A DNA stretch of 64,000 nt from Diprion similis. Lineage: Eukaryota; Arthropoda; Insecta; Hymenoptera; Diprionidae. Shown here piece after piece: positions 4,300 through 44,801 of this stretch (position 1 is the first letter of the stretch; each line of letters begins with the position of its first letter). Made by a program: the position numbers and the translations under genes. Below the pieces are notes generated by a model. The model worked only from the letters and a program-made list of their open reading frames with translations. It was not told the origin of the DNA and ran no database searches. Location: assembly GCF_021155765.1 (NCBI RefSeq), contig NC_060111.1, forward strand, positions 2,661,997 through 2,725,996, in the 5' to 3' direction.

Positions 4300-4709
4300 T
4301 ACCGCATTGTTCCGAATATAAGTCGACCCTGGACATTAGTCCAAGTTTTAAGCAAGACCCCTAGTCTTCACTCTGCATTTCAGGATTTCATTTTAGATAC
4401 TGAATATAATTCGCCTTTTATGACAAAATTGATATCACAAGAGTATATTTACATATTAATTTATAAATTGCAATTTTCTCAAGTAAGTATGTTAATCAAT
4501 GAAACTTGGGTAGATTAAAATGTGACAGTTTGAATTCCATTGGTCTAATTTGATCATTTAACAATTCATCAAAAACAATTTCAGTCTGCAAGGTAAAGTT
4601 CTCAAAAAATCCCGAATTTAAGTCGACCCCGCGTATAAGTGTAGGACGATTTTTTGGGGTCATGTTAGCAAAAAAAAAAACCTCGACTTATATTCGGACC
4701 AATATGGTA
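4300..4709. mobile_element. Non-autonomous DNA transposon (MITE, pogo/Tc1-mariner-like ends)
   Basis: The left end begins TACCGCATTGTTCCGAATAT, and the reverse complement of the right end begins TACCATATTGGTCCGAATAT. The match continues through AAGTCGA, giving terminal inverted repeats of about 27 bp with four mismatches. Both ends start with TA, the expected target duplication of the Tc1/mariner/pogo superfamily. A second, diverged copy of the AAGTCGACC block lies inside the right half (about 4613-4628). There is no transposase frame; the short reading frame across 4261-4518 is incidental. Length is about 410 bp. The superfamily assignment is inferred from the TA termini and terminal sequence style. 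Confidence 0.75.
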
Positions 4710-19289: not shown

Positions 19290-22200
19290 ATGACCGTTTC
19301 TGGGCTAATTGGGACCCCAGGAACTCAAAAACCACATTAAAAAGAGCGTAGGACCTACAGCAAAGAAATGACGATGAAAATCTGCAGTTTTTTGGCTGTA
19401 ACTTTTGATCCGTTGCTCGCAGCGTATTGAGACTGCGCTCGATCGATTTCTCTCGCAAAATTACGTCGGACCAGTGCCCCAAAGAATTAATTGCAGCACT
19501 TTTCAAAGTCGTCGAAATTTTCGCCAAAAATCCAAAGGGGTTAGCCTTACTTTTTTTGCGATTTTTGGAGCCGAAAATTTCTGGTCTCCGAATTGATTGG
19601 TATGACCGTTTCTTGGCTAATTGGAACCCCAGGAACCCAAAAACCACATTAAAAAGAGCGTAGGACCTACAGCAAAGAAATGACGATGAAAATCTGCAGT
19701 TTTTTGGCTGTAACTTTCGATCCGTTGCTCGCAGCGTATTGGGACTGCGCTCGATCGATTTCTCTCGCAAAATTACGTCGGAATAGTGCCCTGAAGAATT
19801 AATTGCAGCACTTTTCAAAGTCGTCGAAATTTTCGTCAAAAATCCAAAGGGGTTAGCCTTACTTTTTTTGCGATTTTTGGAGCCGAAAATTTCTGGTCTC
19901 CGAATTGATTTGTATGACCGTTTCTCGGCTAATTGGAACCCGAGGAACTCAAAAACCACATTAAAAAGAGCGTAGGACCTACAGCAAAGAAATGACGATG
20001 AAAATCTGCAGTTTTTTAGCTGTAACTTCTGATCCGTTGCTCGCAGCGTATTGGGACTGCGCTCGATCGATTTCTCTCGCAAAATTACGTCGGAATAGTG
20101 CCCTAAAGAATTAATTGCAGCACTTTTCAAAGTCGTCGAAATTTTCGCCAAAAATCCAAAGGGGTTAGCCTTACTTTTTTTGCGATTTTTGGAGCCGAAA
20201 ATTTCTGGTCTCCGAATTGATTTGTATGACCGTTTCTTGGCTAATTGGAACCCCAGGAACTCAGAAACCACATTAAAAAGAGCGTAGGACCAACAGCAAA
20301 GAAATGACGATGAAAATCTGCAGTATTTTGGCTGTAACTTTTGATCCGTTGCTCGCAGCGTATTGTGACTGCGCTCGATCGATTTCTCTCGCGAAATTAC
20401 GTCGGAATAGTGCCCTAAAGAATTAATTGCAGCACTTTTCTAAGTCGTCGAAATTTTCGCCAAAAATCCAAAGGGGTTAGCCTTACTTTTTTTGCGATTT
20501 TCCGAGACGAAAATTTCTGGTCTCCGAATTGATTTGTATGACCGTTTCTAGGCTAATTGGAACCCGAGGAACTCAAAAACCACATTAAAAAGAGCGTAGG
20601 ACCAACAGCAAAGAAATGACGATGAAAATCTGCAGTATTTTGGCTGTAACTTTTGATCCGTTGCTCGCAGCGTATTGGGACTGCGCTCGATCGATTTCTC
20701 TCGCAAAATTACGTCGGAATAGTGCCCTAAAGAATTAATTGCAGCACTTTTCAAAGTCGTCGAAATTTTCGCCAAAAATCCAAAGGGGTTAGCCTTACTT
20801 TTTTTGCGATTTTTGGAGCCGAAAATTTCTGGTCTCCGAATTGATTTGTATGACCGTTTCTGGGCTAATTGGGACCCCAGGAACTCAAAAACCACATTAA
20901 AAAGAGCGTAGGACCTACAGCAAAGAAATGACGATGAAAATCTGCAGTTTTTTGGCTGTAACTTTTGATCCGTTGCTCGCAGCGTATTGGGACTGCGCTC
21001 GATCGATTTCTCTCGCAAAATTACGTCGGACCAGTGCCCCAAAGAATTAATTGCAGCACTTTTCAAAGTCGTCGAAATTTTCGCCAAAAATCCAAAGGGG
21101 TTAGCCTTACTTTTTTTGCGATTTCGGAGCCGAAAATTTCTGGTCTCCGAATTGATTGGTATGACCGTTTCTTGGCTAATTGGAACCCCAGGAACTCAAA
21201 AACCACATTAAAAAGAGCGTAGGACCTACAGCAAAGAAATGACGATGAAAATCTGCAGTTTTTTGGCTGTAACTTTTGATCCGTTGCTCGCAGCGTATTG
21301 GGACTGCGCTCGATCGATTTCTCTCGCAAAATTACGTCGGAATAGTGCCCTGAAGAATTAATTGCAGCACTTTTCAAAGTCGTCGAAATTTTCGCCAAAA
21401 ATCCAAAGGGGTTAGCCTTACTTTTTTTGCGATTTTTGGAGCCGAAAATTTCTGGTCTCCGAATTGATTTGTATGACCGTTTCTCGGCTAATTGGAACCC
21501 GAGGAACTCAAAAACCACATTAAAAAGAGCGTAGGACCTACAGCAAAGAAATGACGATGAAAATCTGCAGTTTTTTAGCTGTAACTTCTGATCCGTTGCT
21601 CGCAGCGTATTGGGACTGCGCTCGATCGATTTCTCTCGCAAAATTACGTCGGAATAGTGCCCTAAAGAATTAATTGCAGCACTTTTCAAAGTCGTCGAAA
21701 TTTTCGCCAAAAATCCAAAGGGGTTAGCCTTACTTTTTTTGCGATTTTTCGAGCCGAAAATTTCTGGTCTCCGAATTGATTTGTATGACCGTTTCTTGGC
21801 TAATTGGAACCCCAGGAACTCAAAAACCACATTAAAAAGAGCGTAGGACCAACAGCAAAGAAATGACGATGAAAATCTGCAGTTTTTTGGCTGTAACTTT
21901 TGATCCGTTGCTCGCAGCGTATTGAGACTGCGCTCGATCGATTTCTCTCGCGAAATTACGTCGGAATAGTGCCCTGAAGAATTAATTGCAGCACTTTTCA
22001 AAGTCGTCGAAATTTTCGCCAAAAATCCAAAGGGGTTAGCCTTACTTTTTTTGCGATTTTTGGAGCCGAAAATTTCTGGTCCCCGAATTGATTTGTATGA
22101 CCGTTTCTGGGCTAATTGGGACCCCAGGAACTCAAAAACCACATTAAAAAGAGCGTAGGACCTACAGCAAAGAAATGACGATGAAAATCTGCAGTTTTTT

Positions 22201-24000
22201 GGCTGTAACTTTTGATCCGTTGCTCGCAGCGTATTGGGACTGCGCTCGATCGATTTCTCTCGCAAAATTACGTCGGACCAGTGCCCCAAAGAATTAATTG
22301 CAGCACTTTTCAAAGTCGTCGAAATTTTCGCCAAAAATCCAAAGGGGTTAGCCTTACTTTTATTGCGATTTTTGGAGCCGAAAATTTCTGGTCTCCGAAT
22401 TGATTGGTATGACCGTTTCTTGGCTAATTGGAACCCCAGGAACTCAAAAACCACATTAAAAAGAGCGTAGGACCTACAGCAAAGAAATGACGATGAAAAT
22501 CTGCAGTTTTTTGGCTGTAACTTTCGATCCGTTGCTCGCAGCGTATTGGGACTGCGCTCGATCGATTTCTCTCGCAAAATTACGTCGGAATAGTGCCCTA
22601 AAGAATTAATTGCAGCACTTTTCAAAGTCGTCGAAATTTTCGCCAAAAATCCAAAGGGGTTAGCCTTACTTTTTTTGCGATTTTTGGAGCCGAAAATTTC
22701 TGGTCTCCGAATTGATTTGTATGACCGTTTCTGGGCTAATTGGGACCCCAGGAACTCAAAAACCACATTAAAAAGAGCGTAGGACCTACAGCAAAGAAAT
22801 GACGATGAAAATCTGCAGTTTTTTGGCTGTAACTTTTGATCCGTTGCTCGCAGCGTATTGGGACTGCGCTCGATCGATTTCTCTCGCAAAATTACGTCGG
22901 ACCAGTGCCCCAAAGAATTAATTGCAGCACTTTTCAAAGTCGTCGAAATTTTCGCCAAAAATCCAAAGGGGTTAGCCTTACTTTTTTTGCGATTTTCGGA
23001 GCCGAAAATTTCTGGTCTCCGAATTGATTGGTATGACCGTTTCTTGGCTAATTGGAACCCCAGGAACTCAAAAACCACATTAAAAAGAGCGTAGGACCTA
23101 CAGCAAAGAAATGACGATGAAAATCTGCAGTTTTTTGGCTGTAACTTTTGATCCGTTGCTCGCAGCGTATTGGGACTGCGCTCGATCGATTTCTCTCGCA
23201 AAATTACGTCGGAATAGTGCCCTGAAGAATTAATTGCAGCACTTTTCAAAGTCGTCGAAATTTTCGCCAAAAATCCAAAGGGGTTAGCCTTACTTTTTTT
23301 GCGATTTTTGGAGCCGAAAATTTCTGGTCTCCGAATTGATTTGTATGACCGTTTCTCGGCTAATTGGAACCCGAGGAACTCAAAAACCACATTAAAAAGA
23401 GCGTAGGACCTACAGCAAAGAAATGACGATGAAAATCTGCAGTTTTTTAGCTGTAACTTCTGATCCGTTGCTCGCAGCGTATTGGGACTGCGCTCGATCG
23501 ATTTCTCTCGCAAAATTACGTCGGAATAGTGCCCTAAAGAATTAATTGCAGCACTTTTCAAAGTCGTCGAAATTTTCGCCAAAAATCCAAAGGGGTTAGC
23601 CTTACTTTTTTTGCGATTTTTCGAGCCGAAAATTTCTGGTCTCCGAATTGATTTGTATGACCGTTTCTTGGCTAATTGGAACCCCAGGAACTCAAAAACC
23701 ACATTAAAAAGAGCGTAGGACCAACAGCAAAGAAATGACGATGAAAATCTGCAGTTTTTTGGCTGTAACTTTTGATCCGTTGCTCGCAGCGTATTGAGAC
23801 TGCGCTCGATCGATTTCTCTCGCGAAATTACGTCGGAATAGTGCCCTAAAGAATTAATTGCAGCACTTTTCAAAGTCGTCGAAATTTTCGCCAAAAATCC
23901 AAAGGGGTTAGCCTTACTTTTTTTGCGATTTTTGGAGCCGAAAATTTCTGGTCCCCGAATTGATTTGTATGACCGTTTCTGGGCTAATTGGGACCCCAGG
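19290..24000. repeat. Four-monomer higher-order repeat zone (about 1,248 bp period)
   Basis: At the TTTCTNGGCTAATTGG position, monomers fall into types: G (TGGGCTAATTGGGAC), T* (TTGG preceded by GATTGGTATGACC), C (TCGG followed by AACCCGAGG) and T (TTGG with AACCCCAGG). The order G-T*-C-T occurs at about 19298-20233, 20857-21793 and 22729-23665. A partial G-T* unit sits at 22106-22417, and a lone A-type monomer at 20545. Monomers in the same place of different units share private variants, for example GTCGGACCAGTGCCCC immediately before the T* marker. Confidence 0.8.
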
Positions 24001-24699
24001 AACTCAAAAACCACATTAAAAAGAGCGTAGGACCTACAGCAAAGAAATGACGATGAAAATCTGCAGTTTTTTGGCTGTAACTTTTGATCCGTTGCTCGCA
24101 GCGTATTGGGACTGCGCTCGATCGATTTCTCTCGCAAAATTACGTCGGAATAGTGCCCTAAAGAATTAATTGCAGCACTTTACAAAGTCGTCAAAATTTT
24201 CGCCAAAAATCCAAAGGGGTTAGCCTTACTTTTTTTGCGATTTTTGGAGCCGAAAATTTCTGGTCTCCGAATTGATTTGTATGACCGTTTCTGGGCTAAT
24301 TGGGACCCCAGGAACTCAAAAACCACATTAAAAAGAGCGTAGGACCTACAGCAAAGAAATGACAATGAAAATCTGCAGTTTTTTGGCTGTAACTTTTGAT
24401 CCGTTGCTCGCAGCGTATTGGGACTGCGCTCGATCGATTTCTCTCGCAAAATCACGTCGGAATAGTGCCCTAAAGAATTAATTGCAGCACTTTTCAAAGT
24501 CGTCGAAATTTTCGCCAAAAATCCAAAGGGGTTAGCCTTACTTTTTTTGCGATTTTTGGAGCCGAAAATTTCTGGTCTCCGAATTGATTTGTATGACCGT
24601 TTCTGGGCTAATTGGGACCCCAGGAACTCAAAAACCACATTAAAAAGAGCGTAGGACCTACAGCAAAGAAATGACAATGAAAATCTGCAGTTTTTTGGC

Positions 24700-25540
24700 T
24701 GTAACTTTTGATCCGTTGCTCGCAGCGTATTGGGACTGCGCTTGATCGATTTCTCTCGCAAAATTACGTCGGAATAGTGCCTCAAAGAATTAATTGCAGC
24801 ACTTTTTAAAGTCGTCGAAATTTTCGCCAAAAATCCAAAGGGGTTAGCCCTACTTTTTTTGCGATTTTTGGAGCCAAAAATTCTGGTCTCCGAATTGATT
24901 TGTATGACCGTTTCTTGGCTAATTGGAACCCCAGGAACTCAAAAACCACATTAAAAAGAGCGTAGGACCAACAGTAAAGAAATGACGATGAAAATCTGCA
25001 GTTTTTTGGCTGTAACTTTTGATCCGTTGCTCGCAGCGTATTGAGACTGCGCTCCATCGATTTCTCTCGCAAAATACGTCGGAATAGTGCCCTAAAGAAT
25101 AAATTGCAGCACTTTTCAAAGTCGTCGACATTTTTTGCCACAAATCCAAAGGGGTTAGCCTTACTTTTTTTTGCGATTTTTGGAACCGAAAATTTCTGGT
25201 CTCCAAATTGATTTGTATGACGGTTTCTCGGCTAATTGGAACCCCAGGAACTCAAAAACCACATTAAAAAGAGCGTAGGACCAACAGCAAAGAAATGACG
25301 ATGAAAATCTGCAATTTTTTGGATGTAACTTTTGATCCGTTGCTCGCAGCGTATTGGGACTGCGCTCGATCGATTTCTCTCGCAAAATTACGTCGGAATA
25401 GTGCCCTGAAGAATTAATTGCAGCGCTTTTCGAAGTCGTCGAAATTTTCGCCAAAAATCCAAAGGGGTTAGCCTCACTTTTTTTTTGCGATTTTTGAAGC
25501 CGAAAATTTCTGGTCTCCAAATTGATTTGTATGACCGATT
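24700..25540. repeat. First copy of a large duplicated block inside the array
   Basis: This stretch carries rare variants: CTTGATCGATTTC (24741), AGCCAAAAATTCTGG, CTCCATCGATTTC, CATTTTTTGCCACAAATCC, GACGGTTTCTCGG, TGCAATTTTTTGGATG and GACCGATTTTTGG. The same series returns in the same order near the right end of the array. Confidence 0.85.
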
Positions 25541-28500
25541 TTTGGCTAATTGGAACCCCAGGAACTCAAAAACCACATTAAAAAGAGCGTAGGACCAACA
25601 GCAAAGAAATGAAGATGAAAATCTGCAGTTTTTTGGCTGTAACTTTTGATCCGTTGCTCGCAGCGTATTGGGACTGCGCTCGATCGATTTCTCTCGCGAA
25701 ATTACGTCGGAATAGTGCCCCAAAGAATTAATTGCAGCACTTTTCAAAGTCATCGAAATTTTCGCCAAAAATCCAAAGGGGTTAGCCTTACTTTTTCTGC
25801 GATTTTTGGAGCCGAAAATTTCTGGTCTCCGAATTGATTTGTATGACCGTTTCTTGGCTAATTGGAACCCCAGGAACTCAAAAACCACATTAAAAAGAGC
25901 GTAGGACCAACAGCAAAGAAATGACGATGAAAATCTGCAGTTTTTTGGCTGTAACTTTTGATCCGTTGCTCGCAGCGTATTGGGACTGCGCTCGATCGAT
26001 TTCTCTCGCAAAATTACGTCGGAATAGTGCCCTAAAGAATTAATTGCAGCACTTTTCAAAGTCGTCGAAATTTTCGCCAAAAATCCAAAGGGGTTAGCCT
26101 TACTATTTTTGCGATTTTTGGTGCCGAAAATTTCCGGTCTCCGAATTGATTTGTATGACCGTTTCTGGGCTAATTGGAACCCCAGGAACTCAAAAACCAC
26201 ATTAAAAAGAGCGTAGGACCTACAGTAAAGAAATGACGATGAAAATCTGCAGTTTTTTGGCTGTAACTTTTGATCCGTTGCTCGCAGCGTATTGGGACTG
26301 CGCTCGATCGATTTCTCTCGCAAAATTACGTCGGAATAGTGCCCTAAAGAATTAATTGCAGCACTTTTCAAAGTCGTCGAAATTTTCGCCAAAAATCCAA
26401 AGGGGTTAGCCTTACTTTTTTTGCGATTTTTGGAGCCGAAAATTTCTGGTCTCCGAATTGATTTGTATGACCGTTTCTGGGCTAATTGGGACCCCAGGAA
26501 CTCAAAAACCACATTGAAAAGAGCGTAGGACCTACAGCAAAGAAATGAAGATGAAAATCTGCAGTTTTTTGGCTGTAACTTTTGATCCGTTGCTCGCAGC
26601 GTATTGGGACTGCGCTCGATCGATTTCTCTCGCAAAATTACGTCGGACCAGTGCCCCAAAGAATTAATTGCAGCACTTTTCAAAGTCGTCGAAATTTTCG
26701 CCAAAAATCCAAAGGGGTTAGCCTTACTTTTTTTGCGATTTTTGGTGCCGAAAATTTCTGGTCTCCGGATTGATTTGTATCACCGTTTCTGGGCTAACTG
26801 GGACCCCAGGAACTCAAAAACCACATTAAAAAGAGCGTAGGACCTACAGCAAAGAAATGACGATGAAAATCTGCAGTTTTTTGGCTGTAACTTTTGATCC
26901 GTTGCTCGCAGCGTATTGGGACTGCGCTCGATCGATTTCTCTTGCAAAATTACGTCGGAATAGTGCCCTAAAGAATTAATTGCAGCACTTTTCAAAGTCG
27001 TCGAAATTTTCGCCAAAAATCCAAAGGGGTTAGCCTTACTTTTTTTGCGATTATTGGAGCCGAAAATTTCTGGTCTCCGAATTGATTTGTATGACCGTTT
27101 CTGGGCTAATTGGGACCCCAGGAACTCAAAAACCACATTAAAAAGAGCGTAGGACCTACAGCAAAGAAATGACGATGAAAATCTGCAGTTTTTTGGCTGT
27201 AACTTTTGATCCGTTGCTCGCAGCGTATTGGGACTGCGCTCGATCGATTTCTCTCGCAAAATTACGTCGGAATAGTGCCCTAAAGAATTAAGTGCAGCAC
27301 TTTTCAAAGTCGTCGAAATTTTCGCCAAAAATCCAAAGGGGTTAGCCTCACTTTTTTTGCGATTTTTGGAGCCGAAAATTTCTGGTCTTCGAATTGATTT
27401 GTATGACCGTTTCTTGGCTAATTGGAACCCCAGGAACTCAAAAACCACATTAAAAAGAGCGTAGGACCAACAGCAAAGAAATGACGATGAAAATCTGCAG
27501 TTTTTTGGCTGTAACTTTTGATCCGTTGCTCGCAGCGTATTGGGACTGCGCTCGATCGATTTCTCTCGCGAAATTACGTCGGAATAGTGCCCTAAAGAAT
27601 TCATTGCAGCACTTTTCAAAGTCGTCGAAATTTTCGCCAAAAATCCAAAGGGGTTAGCCTTACTTTTTTTGCGATTTTTCGAGCCGAAAATTTCTGGTCT
27701 CCGAATTGATTTGTATGACCGTTTCTTGGCTACTTGGAACCCCAGGAACTCAAAAACCACATTAAAAAGAGCGTAGGACCAACAGCAAAGAAATGACGAT
27801 GAAAATCTGCAGTTTTTTGGCTGTAACTTTTGATCCGTTGCTCGCAGCGTATTGAGACTGCGCTCGATTGATTTCTTTCGCGAAATTACGTCGGAATAGT
27901 GCCCTAAAGAATTAATTGCAGCACTTTTCAAAGTCGTCGAAATTTTCGCCAAAAATCCAAAGGGGTTAGCCTTACTTTTTTTGCGATTTTTGGAGCCGAA
28001 AATTTCTGGTCTCCGAATTGATTTGTATGACCGTTTCTGGGCTAATTGGGACCCCAGGAACTCAAAAACCACATTAAAAAGAGCGTAGGACCTACAGCAA
28101 AGAAATGACGATGAAAATCTGCAGTTTTTTGGCTGTAACTTTTGATCCGTTGCTCGCAGCGTATTGGGACTGCGCTCGATCGATTTCTCTCGCAAAATTA
28201 CGTCGGAATAGTGCCCTAAAGAATTAATTGCAGCACTTTTCAAAGTCGTCGAAATTTTCGCCAAAAATCCAAAGGGGTTAGCCTTACTTTTTTTGCGATT
28301 TTTGGAGCCGAAAATTTCTGGTCTCCGAATTGATTTGTATGACCGTTTCTGGGCTAATTGGGACCCCAGGAACTCAAAAACCACATTAAAAAGAGCGTAG
28401 GACCTACAGCAAAGAAATGACAATGAAAATCTGCAGTTTTTTGGCTGTAACTTTTGATCCGTTGCTCGCAGCGTATTGAGACTGCGCTCGATCGATTTCT

Positions 28501-29069
28501 CTCGCGAAATTACGTCGGAATAGTGCCCTAAAGAATTAATTGCAGCACTTTTCAAAGTCGTCGAAATTTTCGCCAAAAATCCAAAGGGGTTAGCCTTACT
28601 TTTTTTGCGATTTTTGGAGCCGAAAATTTCTGGTCTCCGAATTGATTTGTATGACCGTTTCCGGGCTAATTGGGACCCCAGGAACTCAAAAACCACATTA
28701 AAAAGAGCGTAGGACCTACAGCAAAGAAATGACGATGAAAATCTGCAGTTTTTTGGCTGTAACTTTTGATCCGTTGCTCGCAGCGTATTGGGACTGCGCT
28801 CGATCGATTTCTCTCGCAAAATCACGTCGGAATAGTGCCCTAAAGAATCAATTGCAGCACTTTTCAAAGTCGTCGAAATTTTCGCCAAAAATCCAAAGGG
28901 GTTAGCCTTACTTTTTTTGCGATTTTTGGAGCCGAAAATTTCTGGTCTCCGAATTGATTTGTATGACCGTTTCTGGGCTAATTGGGACCCCAGGAACTCA
29001 AAAACCACATTAAAAAGAGCGTAGGACCTACAGCAAAGAAATGACAATGAAAATCTGCAGTTTTTTGGC

Positions 29070-30240
29070 TGTAACTTTTGATCCGTTGCTCGCAGCGTAT
29101 TGGGACTGCGCTTGATCGATTTCTCTCGCAAAATTACGTCGGAATAGTGCCCCAAAGAATTAATTGCAGCACTTTTTAAAGTCGTCGAAATTTTCGCCAA
29201 AAATCCAAAGGGGTTAGCCCTACTTTTTTTGCGATTTTTGGAGCCAAAAATTCTGGTCTCCGAATTGATTTGTATGACCGTTTCTTGGCTAATTGGAACC
29301 CCAGGAACTCAAAAACCACATTAAAAAGAGCGTAGGACCAACAGCAAAGAAATGACGATGAAAATCTGCAGTATTTTGGCTGTAACTTTTGATCCGTTGC
29401 TCGCAGCGTATTGGGACTGCGCTCGATCGATTTCTCTCGTGAAATTACGTCGGAATAGTGCCCTAAAGATTTCATTGCAGCACTTTTCAAAGTCGTCGAA
29501 ATTTTCGCCAAACATCCAAAGGGGTTAGCCTTACTTTTTTTGCGATTTTTCGAGCCGAAAATTTCTGGTCTCCGAATTGATTTGTATGACCGTTTCTTGG
29601 CTAATTGGAACCCCAGGAACTCAAAAACCACATTAAAAAGAGCGTAGGACCAACAGCAAAGAAATGACGATGAAAATCTGCAGTTTTTTGGCTGTAACTT
29701 TTGATCCGTTGCTCGCAGCGTATTGAGACTGCGCTCCATCGATTTCTCTCGCAAAATACGTCGGAATAGTGCCCTAAAGAATAAATTGCAGCACTTTTCA
29801 AAGTCGTCGACATTTTTTGCCACAAATCCAAAGGGGTTAGCCTTACTTTTTTTTGCGATTTTTGGAACCGAAAATTTCTGGTCTCCAAATTGATTTGTAT
29901 GACGGTTTCTCGGCTAATTGGAACCCCAGGAACTCAAAAACCACATTAAAAAGAGCGTAGGACCAACAGCAAAGAAATGACGATGAAAATCTGCAATTTT
30001 TTGGATGTAACTTTTGATCCGTTGCTCGCAGCGTATTGGGACTGCGCTCGATCGATTTCTCTCGCAAAATTACGTCGGAATAGTGCCCTAAAGAATTAAT
30101 TGCAGCGCTTTTCGAAGTCGTCGAAATTTTCGCCAAAAATCCAAAGGGGTTAGCCTCACTTTTTTTTTGCGATTTTTGAAGCCGAAAATTTCTGGTCTCC
30201 GAATTGATTTGTATGACCGATTTTTGGCTAATTGGAACCC
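29070..30240. repeat. Second copy of the large duplicated block
   Basis: The same rare variants recur. CTTGATCGATTTC (29111) lies 4,370 bp from its first copy, which is 14 monomers. CTCCATCGATTTC (29733) lies 4,682 bp from its first copy, which is 15 monomers. One extra monomer (about 29320-29630, marked by CTCGTGAAATTACG and AAACATCC) was therefore gained here or lost from the first copy. Confidence 0.85.
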
Positions 30241-30349
30241 CAGGAACTCAAAAACCACATTAAAAAGAGCGTAGGACCAACAGCAAAGAAATGACGATGA
30301 CAATCCGCAGTTTTTTGGCTGTAACTTTTGATCCGTTGCTCGCAGCGTA

Positions 30350-30530
30350 TTGGGACTCCGCAAAATTGCGACTAAATAGTGCATGAACGCACTTTTTTCA
30401 TTCCTTCAAATTTTGTCGAAATTTCTAACAAAAATCCAGAAGTCTTCACATTGTTTTGGCTCAAAATTTCGCCGCACATAGTCTATTCGTATGATCCTTC
30501 TACAGTATTATCCAAAATCTTCCACAATTT
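30350..30530. repeat. Degenerate terminal monomer at the right edge of the array
   Basis: After 30349 the match to the consensus becomes patchy: GCAAAATTGCGAC, AATAGTGC, GCACTTTTTTCATTCC, TCGAAATTTC and AAAAATCCAGAAG follow the monomer order. Similarity fades out near 30530. Such decay at edges is typical of tandem satellites, where recombination homogenises only the interior. Confidence 0.7.
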
Positions 30531-32003: not shown

Positions 32004-33590
32004 TTATGATGCACGACGTTTGATGGAAATCTTTCCACGGCTGAGTTGGTATATGTATATTCTGACCTTAGTATTGTCAGATACTTTCTTTACCCAGATC
32101 TGTAAGATAAAAATTATATACGAACTCTTCGTTTAAAGCTCTTACTTAATTAAAGCAAAAATAAATAAAGTCTACTCACAACTTCAGTTCCAATCGCTGA
32201 AATGTTACCAGCGAAACGGGGTAGGTCCTTGCCTTCGACATAAACAGGTTGACCGCGGTGAAACCTGCAAATCGAATGCAAAATATAAAGTCATTTGCAA
32301 AATACAAATTTTTTGTTGCATCGCTTTCGAAAGAAAATCACGATGTGTAAACATTGATGTGAGCTCTAACCATCTTCTTTCATAGAGTAATTTTCCATCT
32401 TCAATCCTTGTCTCTACTAGAGGAGCATCAGGAGATGGAGTGACATGCTGAGTTGGTAGATTAACTGCATTGCAAGTAGTCATGACCGCTAAAAAATTAA
32501 AAAAGCATTACTAAAAGTTATTCAAAATCAAAACCAAAAATCAGTACCTGGTTTTCGCACAGTAGATAGTATTTTACAACGGCTGATCGCTTTTAAGTCA
32601 TTCTCAATCTCCTTCTCATCGAGTAAGTAATTCAACTGCGCTGGAGGTGGCTTTCTACGTTTCTCTACCTTCTCAGGTACAGGGTCATTAGGTCGCCGGC
32701 GCAGTTTTCTGGTCATAGGGGGTTTCACCTGAGTACGAACGATTCAAACTAGTTATGGATAATCATTTTGTATCACATTATGAATTTTTCAAAGAGTAGG
32801 AACACTGGATAAAGGCTTTTACCTCCATAGAATCACCAGTAAGTTCCATTGTGTGACGGTCAGATTCAATCATTTTACGCTTCTCTTCCATATCGGTTAG
32901 TAAATTTTCCTTCAAGTCTATTTTTTTCTCTTCAAATTCTTTGGCTGCTGCTTTTTTCTCAAGTATGTAATCTCTTTCTACCCATTCGGTGAGGTAATCA
33001 CGGTAAATTCCATTCAACCGTAACCTGAATTTAATTGCAGAAAATTAGTATTTTGCAGGATAACTTTTCAACTTCTAAAAATATGTTCTAACGTATTTCA
33101 GGAATGCCTCACCTTTCCTTATACTGCACCTCCAGGCGTTTCAGCTTACGATTGTATTCCGGATGTGTGCCATCCTTCAATTGTTGAAGTTGTTTTTTTA
33201 GACTAGCTAATTTATCTTGGTACATTCTGCAGAGAAAAAAATGTTCGGTTCAGAAGCGATTATTCAAGAGTTGTAATTAAAAATATTGTCAAAATTGTTA
33301 ACTGCTTACTGTTCCTTTATTTCAGTGTACTTTTCTGACTTCCCCATATCGGGCTCACTAGCCTCTTCCGTATCTGAAAATGAAGACAAATTAAAGTTAT
33401 TATTATTGAAATTTTTGTGAGTGCATACGCAAAATTTCTTCATCAAAAAATCGCAAAACGTCTGACCTTCGTCACTTTCATCCTGATCCTCCAAATCACG
33501 ATCCTCTTCCAAGTACTCGTCGTTGTCGTCGTCGACATCATAATCGTCCTGACCATAAGGCGTTGAAAACGGAGAACCTTGAAACGACAT
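32004..33590 (-). CDS. SUDS3: SUDS3/SDS3, Sin3-HDAC corepressor subunit
   Basis: Eight minus-strand exons: 33590-33467, 33373-33310, 33226-33113, 33024-32823, 32728-32548, 32488-32371, 32264-32180 and 32099-32004, giving 327 residues (human 328). SDS3 dimerises through a coiled coil and scaffolds the Sin3-HDAC1/2 complex that deacetylates histones. The acidic N-terminus is followed by [15 protein letters not shown], the coiled coil starting [20 protein letters not shown] (about 64-165), the invariant [20 protein letters not shown] segment with RRPNDPVP, then [27 protein letters not shown], and a C-terminal domain ending [20 protein letters not shown]. All phases agree. The small last exon was found by its [13 protein letters not shown] match to the family. 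The gene is divergent from the SANTA gene, with 391 bp between starts. Confidence 0.95.
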
Positions 33591-33981
33591 GTATACAATA
33601 CTATAAGCTTCTGCGCCAAACAAATCACAACGATGTCAAATTTACACTTGATAATAGTTAACAATAGTTTTCGAAACAAGTTCTCTCTGGTTAAGGTTTT
33701 CAGGTAAAAGGTTATGTTTTGTATGCACACATGCTCACGAAAGGAATGTCATTGGCTTCATCCGATAAACACGTACACGCGTCTGTCGACTTTACCGACA
33801 ATACAGAAATCTGTAAAACCCCACTTGTTGTTCGCTATTCAGATAGCTTCTGTAAGTATTACATGTAATAAAATATATGTCTATTCAAACGTTTTGAAAT
33901 TCCGACCAGGAGGTTTGTTAATCATTTTCTTTGCTTCTTTTTCTCATTTCTCTTTGTATCTAACGCCTCTTTCGAAATTTT
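33591..33981. promoter_or_regulatory. Shared upstream region of SUDS3 and the SANTA gene
   Basis: This is the 391-bp interval between two divergent start codons. It must hold both 5' UTRs and probably a bidirectional promoter. I see no TATA box or named factor site that stands out. Confidence 0.5.
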
Positions 33982-36827
33982 ATGGATCCTGATGAATTAT
34001 CCTACACAGAAATGGAATCATCTTCGACGAAATCAGATGTAGTTGGAATTACTGCAAACGAATTGAGTGGAGTTTCTTGTGGAAATTGTGATTCTGAAGT
34101 CTATGGAACATCAGTAAAATCGCTGGACTATCACGTGGCCCATTTGAAATCTTCAAAAAGGAAGATAAGATCAATTACATTGTGGATTGTTAAACTAAAT
34201 GATGATGACCAGGTTGTTGTCGAAGGAAATTTAGAATGGTATGTTGTTGTTAAAACCTTACATAGGGAATACGTACCTGATACAGAGACTTCCCATACAT
34301 AGTTTCAATAAAATAAACTCCTATGTTGAGTCTGGGAGATATTACTGCATGTTGAATAATTTTAAATCCCCCTTATAATAAACTTTGACTGACAGTGGTA
34401 CGAGAGTTCGAACTAAATCAATAGCGAAGAGAATCACCTCGTCAAGGATTTTATCCAAGTTCAAACATGCCTATCACCTAATCGGAAACATGGCTGATTT
34501 ACAATGTGGTATGCATATAAATCTCAGTCACACTCACGCAAGAACTATGCTGTTATTACATGAGAAGTAATATCATAAATGTTGGATTTTTGCTGCATCA
34601 TGTATACAAAATACTTTCGATTAACAATCTTATATTTATCTTTCGCTTATTCATAAATATTTCCAACCATTTTCTGCAGAACTTCCAGTATTTGTTCGCC
34701 GCAAATTTCATCACGGTTTTCCAGAAGATTGGGAAGCTATTATTAGCATTTGGAAGAGCTTCATTATTACCTCTGAATGCAACGAAGCAACACGATCATT
34801 GTGTACGCCCGAAGGTCTCTTTGTCAATGAAAAGCTCACTATTGATGGTTTCAATGAAAATTCTCGTTTTATTCAAGACGTCTCTAAAGGTACAAGGGTG
34901 GATGAGCCGACGTACCCTATGAACAAAAATGGTACTAATGGAAGCATCAGTGAACATTATCAGAATGATAAACTGGTTGATTCACTTGCCGAAACAGAGA
35001 CCGGCAAGTCAATTTTGGATCATGATGTGTGTGACAAAATATCAAGAACACCAAATTATACCAAGCAGCTCACAGCATGGACACCACTCCTGCAATTTGG
35101 TGACAATGCAGGATGCTACTTGTCCTTTAGGGGAACGTTGCTGAGGTGAGTCACACAATACTAAGGATTATCATTAAAGTGATACATTACATGACTAATT
35201 GTAAATATTTACAATAGTTAATTGTATATCAAAGAAGTTGATATAATGCTGTAAATTATTTTATTACATACCTTGAATATTCGTGAAATTTTGCACAAAA
35301 TACATGATAAATTTTTTCCAGTTCAATGGGTCATGCTGTAAACAGGAATCATGTAACAGGTATTGTTCGTCGAAGAATTTCTCCAAGGATCATTGAAACC
35401 ATTAATCAAGAATTTTATGAATTGATGGGCGATCTCAACAACACTAAACATAGTATGTATGAATGCAATGATGTGTATTCTGAAGTCAGTAGAGTCAAAC
35501 ATTTCTTATCTTATATTTGACACTCATAATCGTATGCCTAATTCATTGCTGCGATTTTTAAATTCTAACGATATTGGAAGTTCTGATTCACATTGCAGCG
35601 CCCCTTAAAAATGTATATCAATTGTTTGGGGATAATAGTACTGAACTTTCACTTGGCAGGTATTCCTAAGGAGTTAATTTTGTGGTGTCGCAATGGATGT
35701 CCAAAGCAAATAAATTTGTTTTGTGAACAATGGAGATTATTGAAAAGTGATGAAATAGAATCTTCTAAACGTTCAGTTAGCGGCAAGTGTTCCTTGTATT
35801 TCACTTATTTTTCCGCGTATTGAAATGAAATATATTTTCGATTTGTCGAAACTATTATTATTCAATGACCCAAATGTTTTACCTACACATTCTAACTTCA
35901 AGTTTTCCTGATGAATCATCAGTTTATCAGTATTTAAAACAGAAATATTATTCTTAATTTTATCTAGATGGAAAACTGAAAGACGAAGACAATGATGTTT
36001 CGCATACAAATCATCATAAGGAATCAGGCAGTTATAGCAAAAAGGTTCATGCGTTGTCACCTATGCAAACTCCAAAAAACAGGATTAAAAGAAAAAGAAT
36101 CTTGACAGACTTAAATGATAACAGAGACACCAATAATTCAATCATCAACTACACGGTATATACGAGTAAACACAAAGCATGCTCGATTTCTTGAGACGAT
36201 TTGTAATAAGGTGGTAAATAAATATTGAATTTAGGGTCCGTCACTAATACATAATAAGAAGCAAAATCCACGGGGTTTAGTTAAATTCATGGGATACCTC
36301 AGAACTGTTTAAAATATAAAATAATCTATATACATTCCAGACTTCTAGCAAAAAAGAAGCCAGCAAAACATCGACTAGCACTTTGCAAGTTAGCAGTTTG
36401 TCCAAAATAAGACGAAAACTTTCAACTTACGGCTTCGAAAACTCCAAGGAGGATACAAATATTGCAGATATTGACTTGGTACTATTGTTCATCTATTGTG
36501 ACACAATGGTCAATGATTGAAACAAAAAAGTAATTACTTTATGGTACACTATTTCGTTATACTCTCAACATCCGTTTTTATCTCCACAGGATGAGAATTT
36601 CAAGTCAATGGAAGAAATCCGTCCAACTACTAAGTAAGTTTTTACTTCGAGCCTGTAATAATTCGTCAAATCTTCAAAAGAACAATCATATTAATTCAAA
36701 GAATGTTCAACTTTACAGACACAATACAAAGCATCAGCGATTGCCGTTGAGTCAAGAACCAGTTATATCGTACATTTATCATGAAAGTTTTGAAGTCAAC
36801 GACAACGATTTGTCTGATGGTGTGTAA
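33982..36827 (+). CDS. Protein with two SANTA-like domains (KNL2/MIS18BP1-like)
   Basis: Nine exons: 33982-34238, 34396-34508, 34680-35145, 35322-35452, 35660-35782, 35968-36155, 36341-36478, 36590-36633 and 36719-36827, giving 522 residues. Phases agree throughout, using one GC-AG intron after 35782. Residues about 66-150 match the SANTA pattern: LWIVKLNDDDQVVVEG, then RITSSRIL, AYHLIGNM, and ELPVFVRRKFHHGFPEDW. Residues about 257-347 repeat it: WTPLLQFGDNAGCYLSFRGT, RRRISPRIIETINQEFYELM, and IPKELILWCRNGCPKQIN. The tail (348-522) is basic and Ser/Thr-rich with no SANT/Myb domain visible. SANTA domains occur in KNL2/MIS18BP1, which recruits CENP-A loading factors to centromeres; a centromere role here is inference. 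It could instead be another SANTA-domain nuclear protein. Confidence 0.75.
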
Positions 36828-37341: not shown

Positions 37342-40300
37342 TTAATTTTCATCGTACAACGGAGTACCGTCTCCGCTAAGAGACATACTCCTGGGACTCG
37401 AATTCGTATGTGGGGTTCCTCTCGGTGATTTGTATGACGGTGTACGTGCTGTTGGTGGCCTGTTGCGGGGTGTAGCTCGACCTGATCCATCGTCGTATCC
37501 CCGCGGAGTTTTTCTCGAGTCTTCATATCTAGGAGTGCTGTTCCCACTGAAATAATGTAAATATCATTTGAGCGTAGAATTTATCTTGATAACAGTTCTA
37601 TCCAGAGCATTGATTGTATTACATTAGAATTCTAGTGGAATTACGATATTCTCTACAAAGTGTCGATGGGACTTGTTAAATATACTTGTGAAATAGTGGG
37701 TAACAATTCAGCAAGTAATAACGAGTTGTCAGAGTTTCAAGAAGACAAAATCGAGGAGGCACATCTTTTGGATACATACGAGATCCTGGGGGTGATCTGT
37801 TTCAGTTTAGCCCATGCCTCGGCGGCCTTTTTCCAATCCATCGGGTCCCCGGCCAGTGTGGACATGTGCGGTGTCGGCCGATGTGAAGGTGTTGTTCTAT
37901 GGTGAGCAGACGTCACTGTGGTTGGCCCAGGATGAACAAACTGGCCTTGGTGATGATTTGGTGTTTGCTGGCCGTATCTGGGCGTTGGCTGACCATGGTG
38001 AGGTGTGTGGTGGGGAGTCTGATACGGGGTCATGAATGGCGTTTGTCCCGATGGGGTGTAAGGAGTATTGGGATAGGTATGCATGCCTCCGTACGGTCCA
38101 GTGCTTGCTGCGCCAGGAGTATGCGGTGGATAATGGTGCGGAGTTTGATTTGCGACTTGAGACAGAGAATGAAGCATGTGATGCGGTAGATTCTGGGCTA
38201 CTCTTTGTATCGCCTCCTGATTCATACCTATTAAGAACATGAAAGAGATTACCAATTAAGTTACGTTGTGGTTCAATGGAGATGGTCTCAAATTAAGCAT
38301 TACTTACTTGACATATTCACACCAGGAGTATTATGGTATGGTGTTCTAGACGTCATTGCACCTCGAGGTGTGCTTGGAGTTCCTTGACCAGGGACAGGGT
38401 CTCGGAAATGTTCCTTAAACCAACGAAACAAGGCGTTGACGTTGTCGAACATTTGTCCCCGGAATCTGAATCCCTCTGGTGTAACGGTCACATATTCGTG
38501 TCGGCAGCGAACGCGAGGTAAATAAGACAATACAAATTTTCCAGGATAATTCTGCAAGCGAATAAGAAACGAGGATAACAATTGTGCGTTTCAATTTAAT
38601 CAATCTCGATGGACGTATGTTTAAATTACCTTTGCGGCGGATATGAAATAATGAATCTTTCCAGGATTCTTTTTCTTCTCATCTTTTAATAACTCTTCTG
38701 CTTTGTCCTTTAAGCCACCTTCCGTGTCCTTATAGTATTTAAAGTACAATAAATCTCTAGCATGAGCAGCCATCGGATTAACATGTCTGGCAATGATTTC
38801 GTCTAGATCCTCAAACTCTTCATTACCGATCCATAAACTCTGGCCAAGAGAAAAGGTATTCTCTTTACCTTCTTCCCGAACATCGATATGTTGACAGATT
38901 TTGTCAGTCACTTTCCACGTTACTGTGAGGTGATCTGCACCTTTGCTACTTGGTCGAACTATCGCTTCACCCTGATCCATATTTTGCATGAATTTCTCAG
39001 CTTCAGCAAAACTGATATTATGAAATGCTGGATGTACAATGACGCGTTTTATGTAAGTCTGTCGTTGTTTTGCTTTTTTCGCATCTTCCTCTATCTGCTG
39101 ATCCTTCTGTTCCGCCTCCATATCATAAAACGGATCTCTTTGCGGTCTGTAAATGAAAGAATATAATTGAATAAACATAATCGATCGTTAGTCTCCAAAA
39201 TTTCAAGTTGAAATTGATTAAGAGTAAAAAGTTTATCATTTTAAAACCTATCAATTTAACGAAAGTTATCGCAACAATTCGCTTACCTCCATTCATGATT
39301 TTTATCTGCAAGATCACTGCTTTTACTAGTACATTCCACACTGAATCTGTCTACCTCAATCTTTATTATACGGCAGTGAATGATTTGGCCAACTCTGACC
39401 CTTTCCTCGGGATTCGCTACATGTTTATCAGACAGATTTTTGATGTGAATATATCCTGATATATTATTTTCCAAGCGCAACCTGACACCAGTAGCTTTTC
39501 CTGGGCAGGCTCCAGCATCAAAGTGATTCCATACTTCTGACAACTCAGGGAAATCATTCTTCAAACAGAATGGACACTGCCAAAGGCCTGTCTCATCATT
39601 TCTTACCGGATTTGCCTGATCTAGTTGTTCACCTTGTGGTTTTCTGTGAGTTATGCCACATACAGTGGCTTCAACCATTTTGCCGATATAGAAAGTTTCC
39701 GGTGTCTCCTTGGTCAATACATCGAACAATTTTTCAGCGCTAAGAGTTTGATACGGTACCCTAAGGTCTTTGTACCTGCTATTTAATTCCGCTCTGATGT
39801 CATACAGCGTTATGCATTTGTTACCAAAACCTTGTCTTTCTAATTCTTCAGCAAACGCGTCTAAATCAAGATCCTTCAATCTTTCCGGCGATTCTAAGAT
39901 TTCCTCCAATGCCCCTGCTGGATTTGCATCCTCGTCGTCATACTCCAATGCATCTACTGCCATTTTTCTGGCCCATTCATATGTCTCTGGATGAACACGC
40001 GAGCCATCAAGCACTTCCACATATGCTTCGGTGCTAAATAAGATAGAGAAGAATTACAGCTAGTTAACAGTATAGACTGAAATTAGGAATGATTCTCACT
40101 ATGATCTTGCAAAAAAGAGAATAAAAGAGTGGGCATATGTAGGGATGTTAACTTGAATATCTTCACTCACCTATCTCCCAAACTGTTTGTGTCAATCTTG
40201 ATAAAACCGGCGCAATTGATAAACACCTTAGGACCCATATGACAAGCTGTGACCAATTGAGTCCTATTCTCTAATCGTTGATTAGTTTGCTTTAGCATTT

Positions 40301-43300
40301 TAATCAAGGCCTGCCCTTTTCGAGGTCCCAAACCGCAGACGAATTGTACCAAGTTTCCAGCATAAGCTTGTTGGACTGCTTTGTTCACATCAACACCAAC
40401 CTCATTTACTCGATTAACGAATTCCAAATACAAATTTTCTAAAAGGTCTTCCTTAGGGAGTTGATCCTGCGAGAGAAACACGTGATTTCACGCTTTTGAG
40501 TTACTGATTCAAAGAAACGATGCTTATTAAGTATTTATCATCAATAGCTGTGGGATTATTCCCACTGTGTGCTAAGGGAAACACTATATTTAAGGACAGG
40601 GACATGGCTCAGTTCTTACATAAGCTTATTGATATAAAATGTGACCACGTGTCTTAGAGTTTGACTTACTTGTAAAGGATGGTACTTTAGACACAAGATT
40701 TCTTCATCCGCTGTGCACAGCTGTGAAAATTCCACCAAAGGATCTTGCATACGCCGTGCCATTGAGATAGCTTCTCTAAGTAATTCCGGATAATCCCTGA
40801 ATTCTGACTGTAATAATAAATGTGAAACATGAATGCAGACACCTGTTTTCAGTCTGTTTCGCCTAGATAATAACACATTATTTATAACGGTAATTACAAC
40901 TAATCTTAGTATCAGAGATGAAATCAGATATTTGGATGAAAACTAACCACTCCTTTATTACTGTTTGAGTAGATCTGGGCGAGCTCGTTGTCACAAACTT
41001 CTACTTGAATGGAGGGAAATTGTTCTTCTTCGACCAGGTTACTTATACACTCTTTGATATCAGCAACAACCATTGTCGCCTCCCTGGATGTACCACTCAC
41101 GACAACAACATGTGGTTTCTTGGTTGCAATAAAATTACGAATAGCCAGCAAGTCAGCTTCCTGAAAAAAACATGATTTAGAACAATCCTTGACAAGTTTG
41201 TAAATTTTGCAAAACCTTCCACCCCGATGGAGATGTCAGAAGCTGTGAGCTGTGCAAAATTACCTTCATAGCTTTTTCATCCTCTCTGAAACTATTTTTC
41301 TTTTTCATTAAATGTGGTAGCCGCAGGTAATCTGTACACTCGCCATCAGGTGCAACAAGACATGTAAATGCTGCTTTGGAATAATCGGGCACATAAGATA
41401 CAGCCATCACACGTAACCCCTTGCTCGTATCCCACTCTTCATCTTCTTCTTCAGGGAAATCGCAGCTATACGGAGCCACTTTGAGCCAGTTATACATCTT
41501 TCGGCAGCAAGCTCGCATCACGCATTCTTTAGCTTCTGCAATTAGATTTGCCTTCAACTCCTTCTTCAATTCGGGAATCACCATTTTTGTTAAAGCCATT
41601 TCCACGCTTGCTACCCTCAATGCATTCCAGTCTTGAACATTCTTACTAAATTCATCCTGTGAATAAAAAAGTGATATTAACCAACGAAAGAGACAATTTG
41701 TAGATGATACGTTCTCCTTCTGGGATTATAAAGGGTTAACAAAATGAAATGGAATGAGGGATCAATTAATTGGTAATGAATGAAAAATTTATTTCTCACC
41801 CTGTAATAAAGTTGCTTCATTTCATCTACATAATTGTTACTAGTATTGCCCTCAATCGAATCACTGAGTGAAATGGTGATAAGTTTATCTTCTTCAGCAA
41901 TACTTAGTTTCAGGAATTGATCGCCGACAAGATCTCTTACAGGTTTGTCTTTCAGATACTTCATTCTGCAATGACACAAAGAATTCAATAGAAATCAATT
42001 TGAATTACTGCCAATCAATAGAAGTTGTATCCCCGATTGTGTAAAACATTTTTCCGGCGTAACTAACAGTGTAGAAGGAGTAATTTCTAAAAGATGGTTT
42101 CATCACTGGTAAAATGGATAATGTTGCAAATACTGAAACTCACGTATATATGGGATGGTTTTCATCAATCTCTTTTATTCCTGTTTTGGTAGGTGTGACG
42201 GAGAGTTTGGCTCTTTCCATATACATTTCCCTAACGCATTTGCGAACAAGAGGTTCCCTTGCAAGCTGAATGGCAACCATCAATTGCGTGGCCTTCAAGG
42301 CTTCTTCCGGAGTCTTAAATTTCTTACCACAGAAGTCATTAGCAACTACAGAGGGTTCCGTTGGTTCCTGATCAACTTCATGACGTTGGTAGTTATCACG
42401 AAGATTCTCCGCATAATGCTCTGGTGACAAACCAAACCTCTTAGCAAGACCGTCCAGGCCAGCCTTTCTACAAATAGTGTAAGGCCCAGTTCTGACAGCT
42501 TGTTTCAGCGTCTCGTCAGCTTCTTCTTCTTCATCAGCTTCAATGTCGTCTTCTGGAGGAGGGTCCTCCCCATTTTCTTCAGCATCAGCTATCTGCTGTC
42601 TTCTTTTAGCTGCTCTTGCCGCAACTCGTGCCTCTCTCTCCTTCTTGCGGACAGCTTCTTGCATAGGTGGAATCTCATGGCTGTAATATAACATGAAGTG
42701 ATGATGAACATCGTTCAATTCTTCGCTGGTTTGAACATTTCGTAATCTCTCGATATCGTCATCCTTTATCAGTCGCAGTCCCTCTGGCAGAGGAGCCTCG
42801 GCGTTTTTCATAATTTCATCCAGTTGATAATTTCTCATTTTTTCAAACAGTTGTAACAAGTTTTCTTTTCTTTGACGAAGCTGACACCATTTCACGTCAA
42901 ATTTGTATACTTTCCATAGATCGTTTATGTTTAGTTCAGGTAAAACATATTCTTTTCGATAAAATGATATAAACGGAACCTCAAAGTGTTGATTACGCAT
43001 AAAGTCCAAGGCTTTTTTGATTTTTCCTACTGTCTGTGGTCCCTTACGCGCCCTTTCTTTGGCCTCAGCATTTAAATGAGAATCTTGAACGGAGACCGAT
43101 GGACGACAGAATGCCTGTTTATAAATCCACTCTGCTTCCAAATCCAGTTCATCTGATCCCTCTGGTACTGGGACAACAGGTACTGAACGTAGTTGCATTC
43201 GCTCAGGTATATCAGTATTACGAATCTAGGAAAATTTATCACATGTTTATTCAATAGGTACATGAAAAGATTTGCAAAGGAAAAACTTCATTTGTGGAAG

Positions 43301-44801
43301 ATTTGTCTCACCTCGTTATCCATGTCAGTAAAGTGTCCTCGCTTGAGTTCACTGGGTTCATATATTTCAAATATACTTTTCCGTGTTGTTTTCTTTTTGG
43401 GTTGTTTTTTTGGACGACGCGGTCGTTCCCCGTCACCATCTTCGTCAACATATTCATCTTCCTCGTCCTCGTCTTCTTCCTCTTCGTAATCCTCTTCCCC
43501 ATACTTTCCAAACTCGTCATAGTCAAAGTCAACGCCAAAAATATCTTGAGCTTCTTGCAACGCGCTAATTTAAAAAAGAAATAAAGATAAAAGTTGATCT
43601 GTAGAAAATCTATCCAAAATTGAGGACAATGTGGAAACTTACGCATCAGAGAATATTGGTTTCTTCTTTCTTCGCCTTTCAGCAATAGGTCTTCCATCAT
43701 CATCGACAATAAAATCATCACCCTCGGAATAATCTCCATCGGAACCTTCCTCGTCAAAAGTCTCTGGTTCTGGCCTATGGCTACGTTCGCTCCTTCTTTC
43801 ATCCTCCTAATACACACCATTCAATGATTATGGATAATGAGAAGGTGATCGAAATTCAAAATAATTTAAGGTAAAAACAGTAGAAAACTTTTAACTCCAA
43901 CAGAACAACACTATTCCTGGTGTGGATGTTGGAAGTTTTCAGATGAATACTTCGTGCAAAAAAAAAAAAGAAACTCACATCACCAGACCCCTCGAACAAT
44001 TCATTGGCAATAGCATCCCGTTCTTCTACAGCTTCGTGCTCCTGCTCTTCCTCAGACTCCTCATCTTGTATTCGACGTAGACGTTTAAAGCGTTTCTGGT
44101 CAAGTCAATAATTTATTTATCAGTACCCCAGGTGAGATAAAGAAACACTTAAATGCCCCATGAATATAGTCAGAAAAAAATTAAAACAAAAAAAGTAGGA
44201 AAAAATAACAAGTAGCAAAAAACCGTTATGCATACCCTTTCCACTTTGACGCCCAAGTTTTCCTCAATAAGATCATAGTCCTCATCTTCCAGTCGATCAT
44301 CAAAGTCTTCATCGTCACTCTTTTTACGCTTTTTTGAGCCACCAGAACCATCGCTGTCCTCTCCTTCACTCTCTTCAATAGGATTATCATCGATAAGATC
44401 CTCCAGTTCTTCACGAAGACGGTCCTCATCATCTAAATACATCAGATTACAATATTACGAACCAAAAAGTCAGAAACAGAAGAACAGAGCGTCAAGCTTT
44501 AAGCATAAGGTACAAGAGGCTACCCATGACAAACTATTGCCAATACTTACCTTCATCATCTTCGTCACTCTCCTCGACAGCTTTTATTTTCTTCAGTTTC
44601 TTCTTTTCGTTGTGATCTAACTCCTCTTCCTCCTAACACGATAACAAATACGACAATAGAGTAAAAAAAAGTAAGATCAAAATCAAGAAAAGAGCTAAAT
44701 TAACGCGCTGCAAGTATTGAATTGCGGATCGCCAAGCTAGATATTATGCATTTTATACTGACCTCACTTTCTTCCGCCTCAGAGTCGATGAAGTCTGCCA
44801 T
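37342..44801 (-). CDS. Spt6: SPT6, transcription elongation factor and histone chaperone
   Basis: Seventeen minus-strand exons: 44801-44763, 44632-44551, 44432-44236, 44095-43979, 43806-43643, 43564-43312, 43225-42144, 41965-41800, 41656-41264, 41160-40948, 40807-40670, 40466-40171, 40033-39287, 39146-38630, 38551-38308, 38227-37780 and 37546-37342. The sum is 1766 residues (human 1726). SPT6 travels with RNA polymerase II and reassembles nucleosomes. Visible parts are the acidic N-terminus (1-280) with FIVDDDG and [13 protein letters not shown], the helical core with HTH, YqgF-like fold (about 760-900), helix-hairpin-helix with CGLGPRKG (about 985), [16 protein letters not shown]1 domain (about 1165-1290), tandem SH2 (about 1320-1530, with IVRPSSKG), and a TP-rich tail ending [10 protein letters not shown]. 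Every phase agrees. Confidence 0.97.

Follow-up and report, generated by a model that had tools for sequence, protein, structure and literature searches.

Whether an insect genome holds a KNL2/M18BP1-type protein with a duplicated SANTA domain is the question raised by a locus of Diprion similis (Hymenoptera; Diprionidae). The locus lies in a window of 64,000 nucleotides (RefSeq assembly GCF_021155765.1, contig NC_060111.1, positions 2,661,997 to 2,725,996, forward strand), in which positions are counted below unless a contig is named. The original prediction, made from the DNA letters, had placed here a gene for a protein with two SANTA-like segments and no SANT/Myb domain, and had proposed that this insect may keep a KNL2-like factor. 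The analysis described here indicates that the gene is very probably a KNL2-family paralogue. What is new is a doubled SANTA domain within one centromere protein of a known family, with a sister gene carrying the usual single domain nearby.

Gene model and genomic surroundings

Splicing in silico of nine predicted exons on the forward strand yielded a protein of 522 residues, with the frame uninterrupted to the stop codon at 36827, and reproduced exactly the coordinates (33982-36827) and the length originally predicted. Seven of the eight introns have GT-AG borders and one has GC-AG borders. The exons and the two neighbouring genes are the following:

33982..34238, + strand: exon 1, with the start codon, the N-terminus and the opening strands of domain 1, whose Pfam stretch starts at 34177; intron 1 in phase 2
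34396..34508, + strand: exon 2 (113 nt), central part of domain 1; intron 2 in phase 1; the equivalent exon of paralogue B, described below, also has 113 nt
34680..35145, + strand: exon 3 (466 nt), in which domain 1 ends (Pfam stretch to 34738) and, after a linker, domain 2 starts (Pfam stretch from 35093); intron 3 in phase 2
35322..35452, + strand: exon 4 (131 nt), central part of domain 2; intron 4 in phase 1; introns 3 and 4 share the alignment columns of introns 1 and 2
35660..35782, + strand: exon 5, last part of domain 2 (Pfam stretch to 35706), followed by the GC-AG intron
35968..36155, + strand: exon 6, part of the tail; two S/T-P sites, at residues 394 and 398, lie next to a basic cluster, RIKRKR (402)
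36341..36478, + strand: exon 7, basic/polar tail
36590..36633, + strand: exon 8 (44 nt)
36719..36827, + strand: exon 9, C-terminus and stop codon
32528..33590, - strand, unspliced and approximate in extent: divergent Sds3-like neighbour (Pfam Sds3 on 32781-33044), starting about 0.4 kb upstream of the SANTA gene
37342..43820, - strand, approximate in extent: convergent Spt6-like neighbour, defined by open frames and by Pfam matches on 39286-40053

The donor of intron 5 (35783-35967) is GC (G|GCAAGT) instead of GT. The basic cluster in exon 6 is a possible nuclear localisation signal.

The Sds3-like gene scored 29.5 bits against a Pfam cut-off of 25.4 on 32781-33044, and no family was listed for its part 32531-32743; the gap that separates it from the SANTA gene (33591-33981) is a possible shared promoter region. 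On the other side, the S1, HHH_9 and Spt6_S1 families were above their Pfam cut-offs on 39286-40053, the part of the gene that was scanned, and the gene as a whole is presumably Spt6-like. As only about 0.5 kb separate the stop codon of the SANTA gene from the last Spt6-like frame, there is little space for an overlooked SANT domain.

Elsewhere in the window, a 312-bp satellite occupies 17497-30361 with about 41 copies and 96% matches, and its long minus-strand frames arise from the repetition itself. Contigs C1, C6 and C8 contain this unit too, with at least 107 matches (12 of 1,323 first-look candidates scored). The best PDB matches of the frame 53243-54736 were alpha-mannosidase II chains (579 bits), which we take to be those of Drosophila; this agrees with an arthropod origin without proving it. 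The SDP_N family, regarded as a marker of Hymenoptera, had no match in the genome and none in the control genomes. No Rfam match at gathering score was found in the window, nor any tRNA by ARAGORN with the bacterial code.

One conserved and one probable, diverged SANTA domain

The comparison with Pfam SANTA (PF09133; cut-off 21 bits) that had been proposed with the original prediction returned 45.2 bits (E 1.3e-11) for the whole protein, in two stretches, with no other family listed; one SANTA domain per protein is usual in the family, though not defining. Domain 1 alone (residues 57-158) scored 37.2 bits (E 4e-9), above the cut-off. Its sole PDB match up to E 10 was Mis18-binding protein 1 of entry 9r6h (E 0.0027), which by its residue spacing appears to be the human protein, in line with the KNL2-like relationship first proposed. 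Excerpts of PMC13294675 describe the SANTA domain as typical of every identified KNL2/M18BP1 member. A SANT/Myb domain was listed by Pfam neither in the 522-residue protein, as had been anticipated, nor in paralogue B, and neither the strict nor the relaxed pattern of the CENPC-like motif matched the 522-residue model.

Of the two SANTA-like domains predicted, the second is the less certain. Domain 2 alone (residues 244-360) reached 14.9 bits (E 0.037; stretch 262-338), which is under the cut-off, with SANTA as the sole family listed of the 24,736 scanned; its assignment is backed instead by intron positions and by profile shuffles. The R-I-S/T-S motif claimed for both segments is present in domain 1 (RITSS), whereas domain 2 reads RISPR, and the closing K/R-x-x-x-G motif is likewise found in domain 1 (KFHHGFP) but not in domain 2 (WCRNGCP). 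Against a profile of three sequences (domain 1, paralogue B and M18BP1 of 9r6h), residues 252-350 scored 17.0 bits, a value that none of 17,928 scored shuffles reached (maximum 10.8; 20,000 were made and 2,072 gave no score). In direct comparisons, the pairwise score of domain 2 with domain 1, with which it shares 16 identities in 89 positions, was reached by 18 of 2,000 shuffles, that with the SANTA domain of paralogue B by 1 of 2,000, and that with M18BP1 by 353 of 2,000. As a single sequence in hhalign, domain 2 obtained a probability of 7% (P 0.005), and it had no match in the PDB.

The decisive evidence comes from the introns. Both domains are interrupted by a phase 2 intron at alignment column 33 and by a phase 1 intron at column 80, and their aligned rows are gap-free from the anchoring glycine to each intron. 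When stand-in positions were placed uniformly within an 89-codon domain, both introns coincided in 63 of 2,000,000 simulations (about 3e-5), and in 1,416 of 2,000,000 when a slip of two codons was allowed. Because positions and phases match in this way, domain 2 is most likely a diverged internal duplicate of domain 1, copied at the DNA level together with its introns.

It is scarcely conceivable that two single-SANTA genes were wrongly joined, or that the second half resembles a SANTA domain by chance. Such an explanation would fit the score of domain 2 under the family cut-off and its weak direct comparisons, but the intron agreement and the shuffled profile scores speak against it. So does exon 3, which lies inside the open frame 34625-35149 and physically joins both domains. 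Because the last part of domain 1 and the first part of domain 2 share this one open frame, the two halves do not come from separate genes joined in error, and on this sequence evidence the locus is a single gene, as originally predicted.

At the position of W467 of human M18BP1, domain 2 has an isoleucine, and the conserved tryptophan is thus lost. The equivalent of human Arg421 is retained in domain 1, in domain 2 and in the SANTA domain of paralogue B, and W413/H414 in none of the three. The Pfam score under the cut-off, the lack of a PDB match, the weak comparisons and the replacement of W467 together suggest that domain 2 may no longer act as a SANTA domain.

A second SANTA gene on the same contig

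A whole-genome search with the 522-residue protein returned nine matches at its own exons and two on the opposite strand at C7:2778930-2779278 (E 6e-4 and 0.083), which belong to a second gene:

C7:2776282-2780463, minus strand, outside the window: paralogue B (L024), a predicted nine-exon model of 1018 residues, least certain in its first exon, of four codons, and in its last exons

Paralogue B lies on the same contig as the tandem-SANTA gene, 77 kb apart and in convergent orientation. It has one SANTA domain, with a score (35.2 bits) similar to that of domain 1, and a long body without other Pfam domains. The introns of its SANTA domain fall at column 33 in phase 2 and at column 80 in phase 1, and the contig therefore carries three exon trios of this arrangement, one in B and two in the tandem gene. 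The SANTA domain of B and domain 1 are 43.9% identical across 107 residues (E 5e-29 when just the two sequences were compared), and because of this identity domain 1 is, as judged from sequence, the copy that stayed conserved, whereas domain 2 diverged.

Near its C-terminus, paralogue B carries a CENPC-like motif, RGRRILPRLDYWNGER, at 846-861, the only place where the relaxed pattern fits. The motif fails the strict pattern P-x-x-aromatic-W by one extra residue between P and YW, and Pfam listed no family for this part of the protein. The top PDB match of the motif, chain K of 7y7i, was not significant (E 0.46) and was followed by a second and last match to an MHC chain (E 0.54). Chain K, identified in excerpts of PMC13294675 as the CENPC-like region of chicken KNL2 on a CENP-A nucleosome, likewise has a residue between the aligned P and LxFW.

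A genome query with B returned, apart from B and the tandem-SANTA gene, a single match at E 2.4. A direct search of the whole genome with PF09133 gave no match at E 0.001, and none in the control genomes, probably because each SANTA domain is interrupted by two introns. Since that search missed both genes found with the protein query, more diverged SANTA genes may be overlooked.

Since a SANTA gene that is longer and bears a CENPC-like motif lies nearby, these sequence features favour reading the tandem gene as a derived paralogue, rather than as the only KNL2 to have been kept. The idea of a retained KNL2-like factor thus holds as to the family relationship, but this factor is not the only one in the genome. 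B could even do the KNL2 work by itself, and the tandem gene would then be a decaying or subfunctional, lineage-specific leftover with an eroding second domain and perhaps restricted expression, for instance in the germline. The low identity of domain 2 to domain 1, its missing tryptophan and the lack of a CENPC-like motif in the tandem protein would suit such a leftover, but nine exons with GT/GC-AG sites, no in-frame stop over 522 codons and a domain 1 that scores like B against SANTA would not, and we consider this explanation rather unlikely, though it is the strongest of the alternatives.

Candidates for other components of the centromere pathway

A histone H3 query led to a divergent H3-type gene of two exons on contig C9 (L025, C9:6053417-6054070; 57-58% identity). 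Its two best PDB chains were H3/CENP-A chimeras (100.3 and 99.7 bits, against about 93-98 for ordinary H3 chains), and its loop 1 is one residue longer than in those chimeras; this gene is a candidate CENP-A. On contig C2 (L026, locus 4349-6121), a frame matched the CENP-C cupin with 35.1 bits against a Pfam cut-off of 29; the CENP-C_C profile also gave matches in 8 of 14 prokaryote controls, none of them above the cut-off. This frame begins about 0.2 kb after a separate open frame with a CENP-C-type motif, RRSSRKRCKPLEYWNGER, which passes the strict CENPC pattern, unlike the motif of paralogue B.

No cupin was found in B beside its CENPC-like motif. According to excerpts of PMC4359364, the hymenopteran CenpC candidates have the motif and lack the cupin; one may speculate that a KNL2 like B could resemble such candidates. 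A survey based on the motif alone could mistake a B-like protein for CENP-C.

The genome search for Mis18alpha/beta with Pfam Yippee-Mis18 gave two matches, both rejected: a Yippee protein (42.7 bits), which we take to be of YPEL5 type, and an exon that is presumably MsrB-like. That Mis18alpha/beta was not found in this search is a weak negative, since a control query with a human YPEL3 sequence found a Yippee gene on C9 that had escaped the family search. A further match of the control query, on C10 (E 0.77), looks on reading like a product of chance. A fragment of human Mis18alpha, used without a positive control, returned nothing at E 10. For HJURP, the Pfam Scm3 search gave nothing in this genome or in the 14 control genomes; it shows little, since insect HJURP/Scm3-type forms are divergent (excerpts of PMC13001451, a preprint).

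If the assignments hold, two KNL2-type genes together with a CENP-A candidate and CENP-C-type frames would show that the KNL2 branch has not been lost from all insects, and has even been elaborated.

Proposed history and function

The best explanation, which we hold with moderate confidence, is that the tandem gene would be a diverged paralogue of KNL2/M18BP1, a licensing factor for CENP-A deposition. An ancestral KNL2 gene would have been duplicated, and one copy, B, would have retained the CENPC-like motif along with its long body. Both would have been lost from the other copy, in which the SANTA exons would then have been duplicated internally, with fast divergence of the second SANTA domain. 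From the family to which it belongs, a part in centromere licensing appears reasonably probable for the tandem-SANTA protein. The failure of the B motif to fit the strict pattern, and the observation that full-length alpha- and beta-KNL2 of plants did not interact in yeast two-hybrid (excerpts of PMC13294675), count against this explanation.

A pair of SANTA domains might alternatively have been re-used away from the centromere, in a chromatin adaptor that has no link to CENP-A loading. The tandem protein has neither a CENPC-like motif nor a SANT domain, and its head-to-head neighbour is an Sds3-like gene, which is circumstantial; against such a re-use, the SANTA proteins in the literature consulted, which was seen in excerpts, are KNL2/M18BP1, and the nearest relative in the genome, B, does carry a CENPC-like motif. 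We regard this alternative as improbable, less so than a joining error but clearly more than the decay of the paralogue.

Under the licensing explanation, a mechanism based on valency can be put forward tentatively. B would bind the CENP-A nucleosome through its CENPC-like motif, and the tandem-SANTA protein would join B through SANTA contacts. The second domain would offer a partly specialised surface to CENP-C or to other partners at the inner kinetochore, and a single chain would thus provide the two-copy SANTA valency that humans reach by M18BP1 dimerisation. Excerpts of the literature contain several observations that touch on these steps. In Xenopus, M18BP1 contacts CENP-C in metaphase through its SANTA domain, and plant beta-KNL2 and alpha-KNL2 pair through SANTA-containing fragments (both PMC13294675). 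After artificial dimerisation of human M18BP1, Mis18alpha/beta is reported to be dispensable for targeting (second-hand, excerpts of PMC13021935 and PMC13294675). A covalent SANTA pair lends itself naturally to testing the idea, reported for the human protein, that it is targeted by copy number and not by Mis18 as such. Papers disagree on the need for SANTA in targeting (PMC13294675, PMC9210943), and W413/H414 of human M18BP1 are said to matter for localisation. The isoleucine in place of the conserved tryptophan in domain 2, and the absence of W413/H414 from all three domains, count against the mechanism.

Bolder, and unlikely on present evidence, would be a two-gene KNL2 module that licenses CENP-A without Mis18alpha/beta, in which B would read the nucleosome and its tandem-SANTA partner would double the valency in one chain, where vertebrates rely on dimerisation driven by Mis18. 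Vertebrate M18BP1 binds Mis18alpha/beta through its N-terminus. If true, such a module would represent an independently evolved animal counterpart to the alpha/beta-KNL2 pair of plants, and would stand midway between the Mis18 system of vertebrates and that of Drosophila, which has no Mis18.

Comparison with known systems

Among the papers listed in searches of 5.39 million open papers, no description of a two-SANTA protein or of an insect KNL2 was met. With vertebrate M18BP1/KNL2, the tandem protein shares the SANTA domain, domain 1 aligning to M18BP1 of 9r6h with equivalents of Arg421 and GFPxxW. The vertebrate proteins, however, combine one SANTA with a SANT domain and, in non-mammals, with a CENPC-like motif (excerpts of PMC13294675), whereas the Diprion protein has two SANTA domains and neither of the other features. 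It also differs from its paralogue B, which has a single SANTA domain, 1018 residues and a CENPC-like motif. The motif is optional in the family, being absent from mammals and from plant beta-KNL2 according to excerpts of PMC13294675.

Drosophila has no clear homologues of the Mis18 complex and uses CAL1 (excerpts of PMC7110144). A place in the CENP-A loading pathway would be common to CAL1 and to the tandem gene, for the latter by inference alone, but CAL1 is an HJURP/Scm3-type chaperone (excerpts of PMC13001451, a preprint), and no SANTA domain is mentioned for it in the excerpts consulted.

In layout there is a likeness to plants, whose KNL2 proteins are without a SANT/Myb domain, an optional feature of the family (excerpts of PMC11879092), and whose KNL2 duplications are described as plant-specific (title of PMC9210943). 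As described in excerpts of PMC13294675 and PMC9210943, plant beta-KNL2 is a SANTA paralogue without SANT domain or CENPC motif, and it is accompanied by a paralogue with both SANTA domain and CENPC motif. As far as their predicted features go, the tandem gene and paralogue B resemble this alpha/beta-KNL2 pair, whereas beta-KNL2 has one SANTA domain and the Diprion protein has two.
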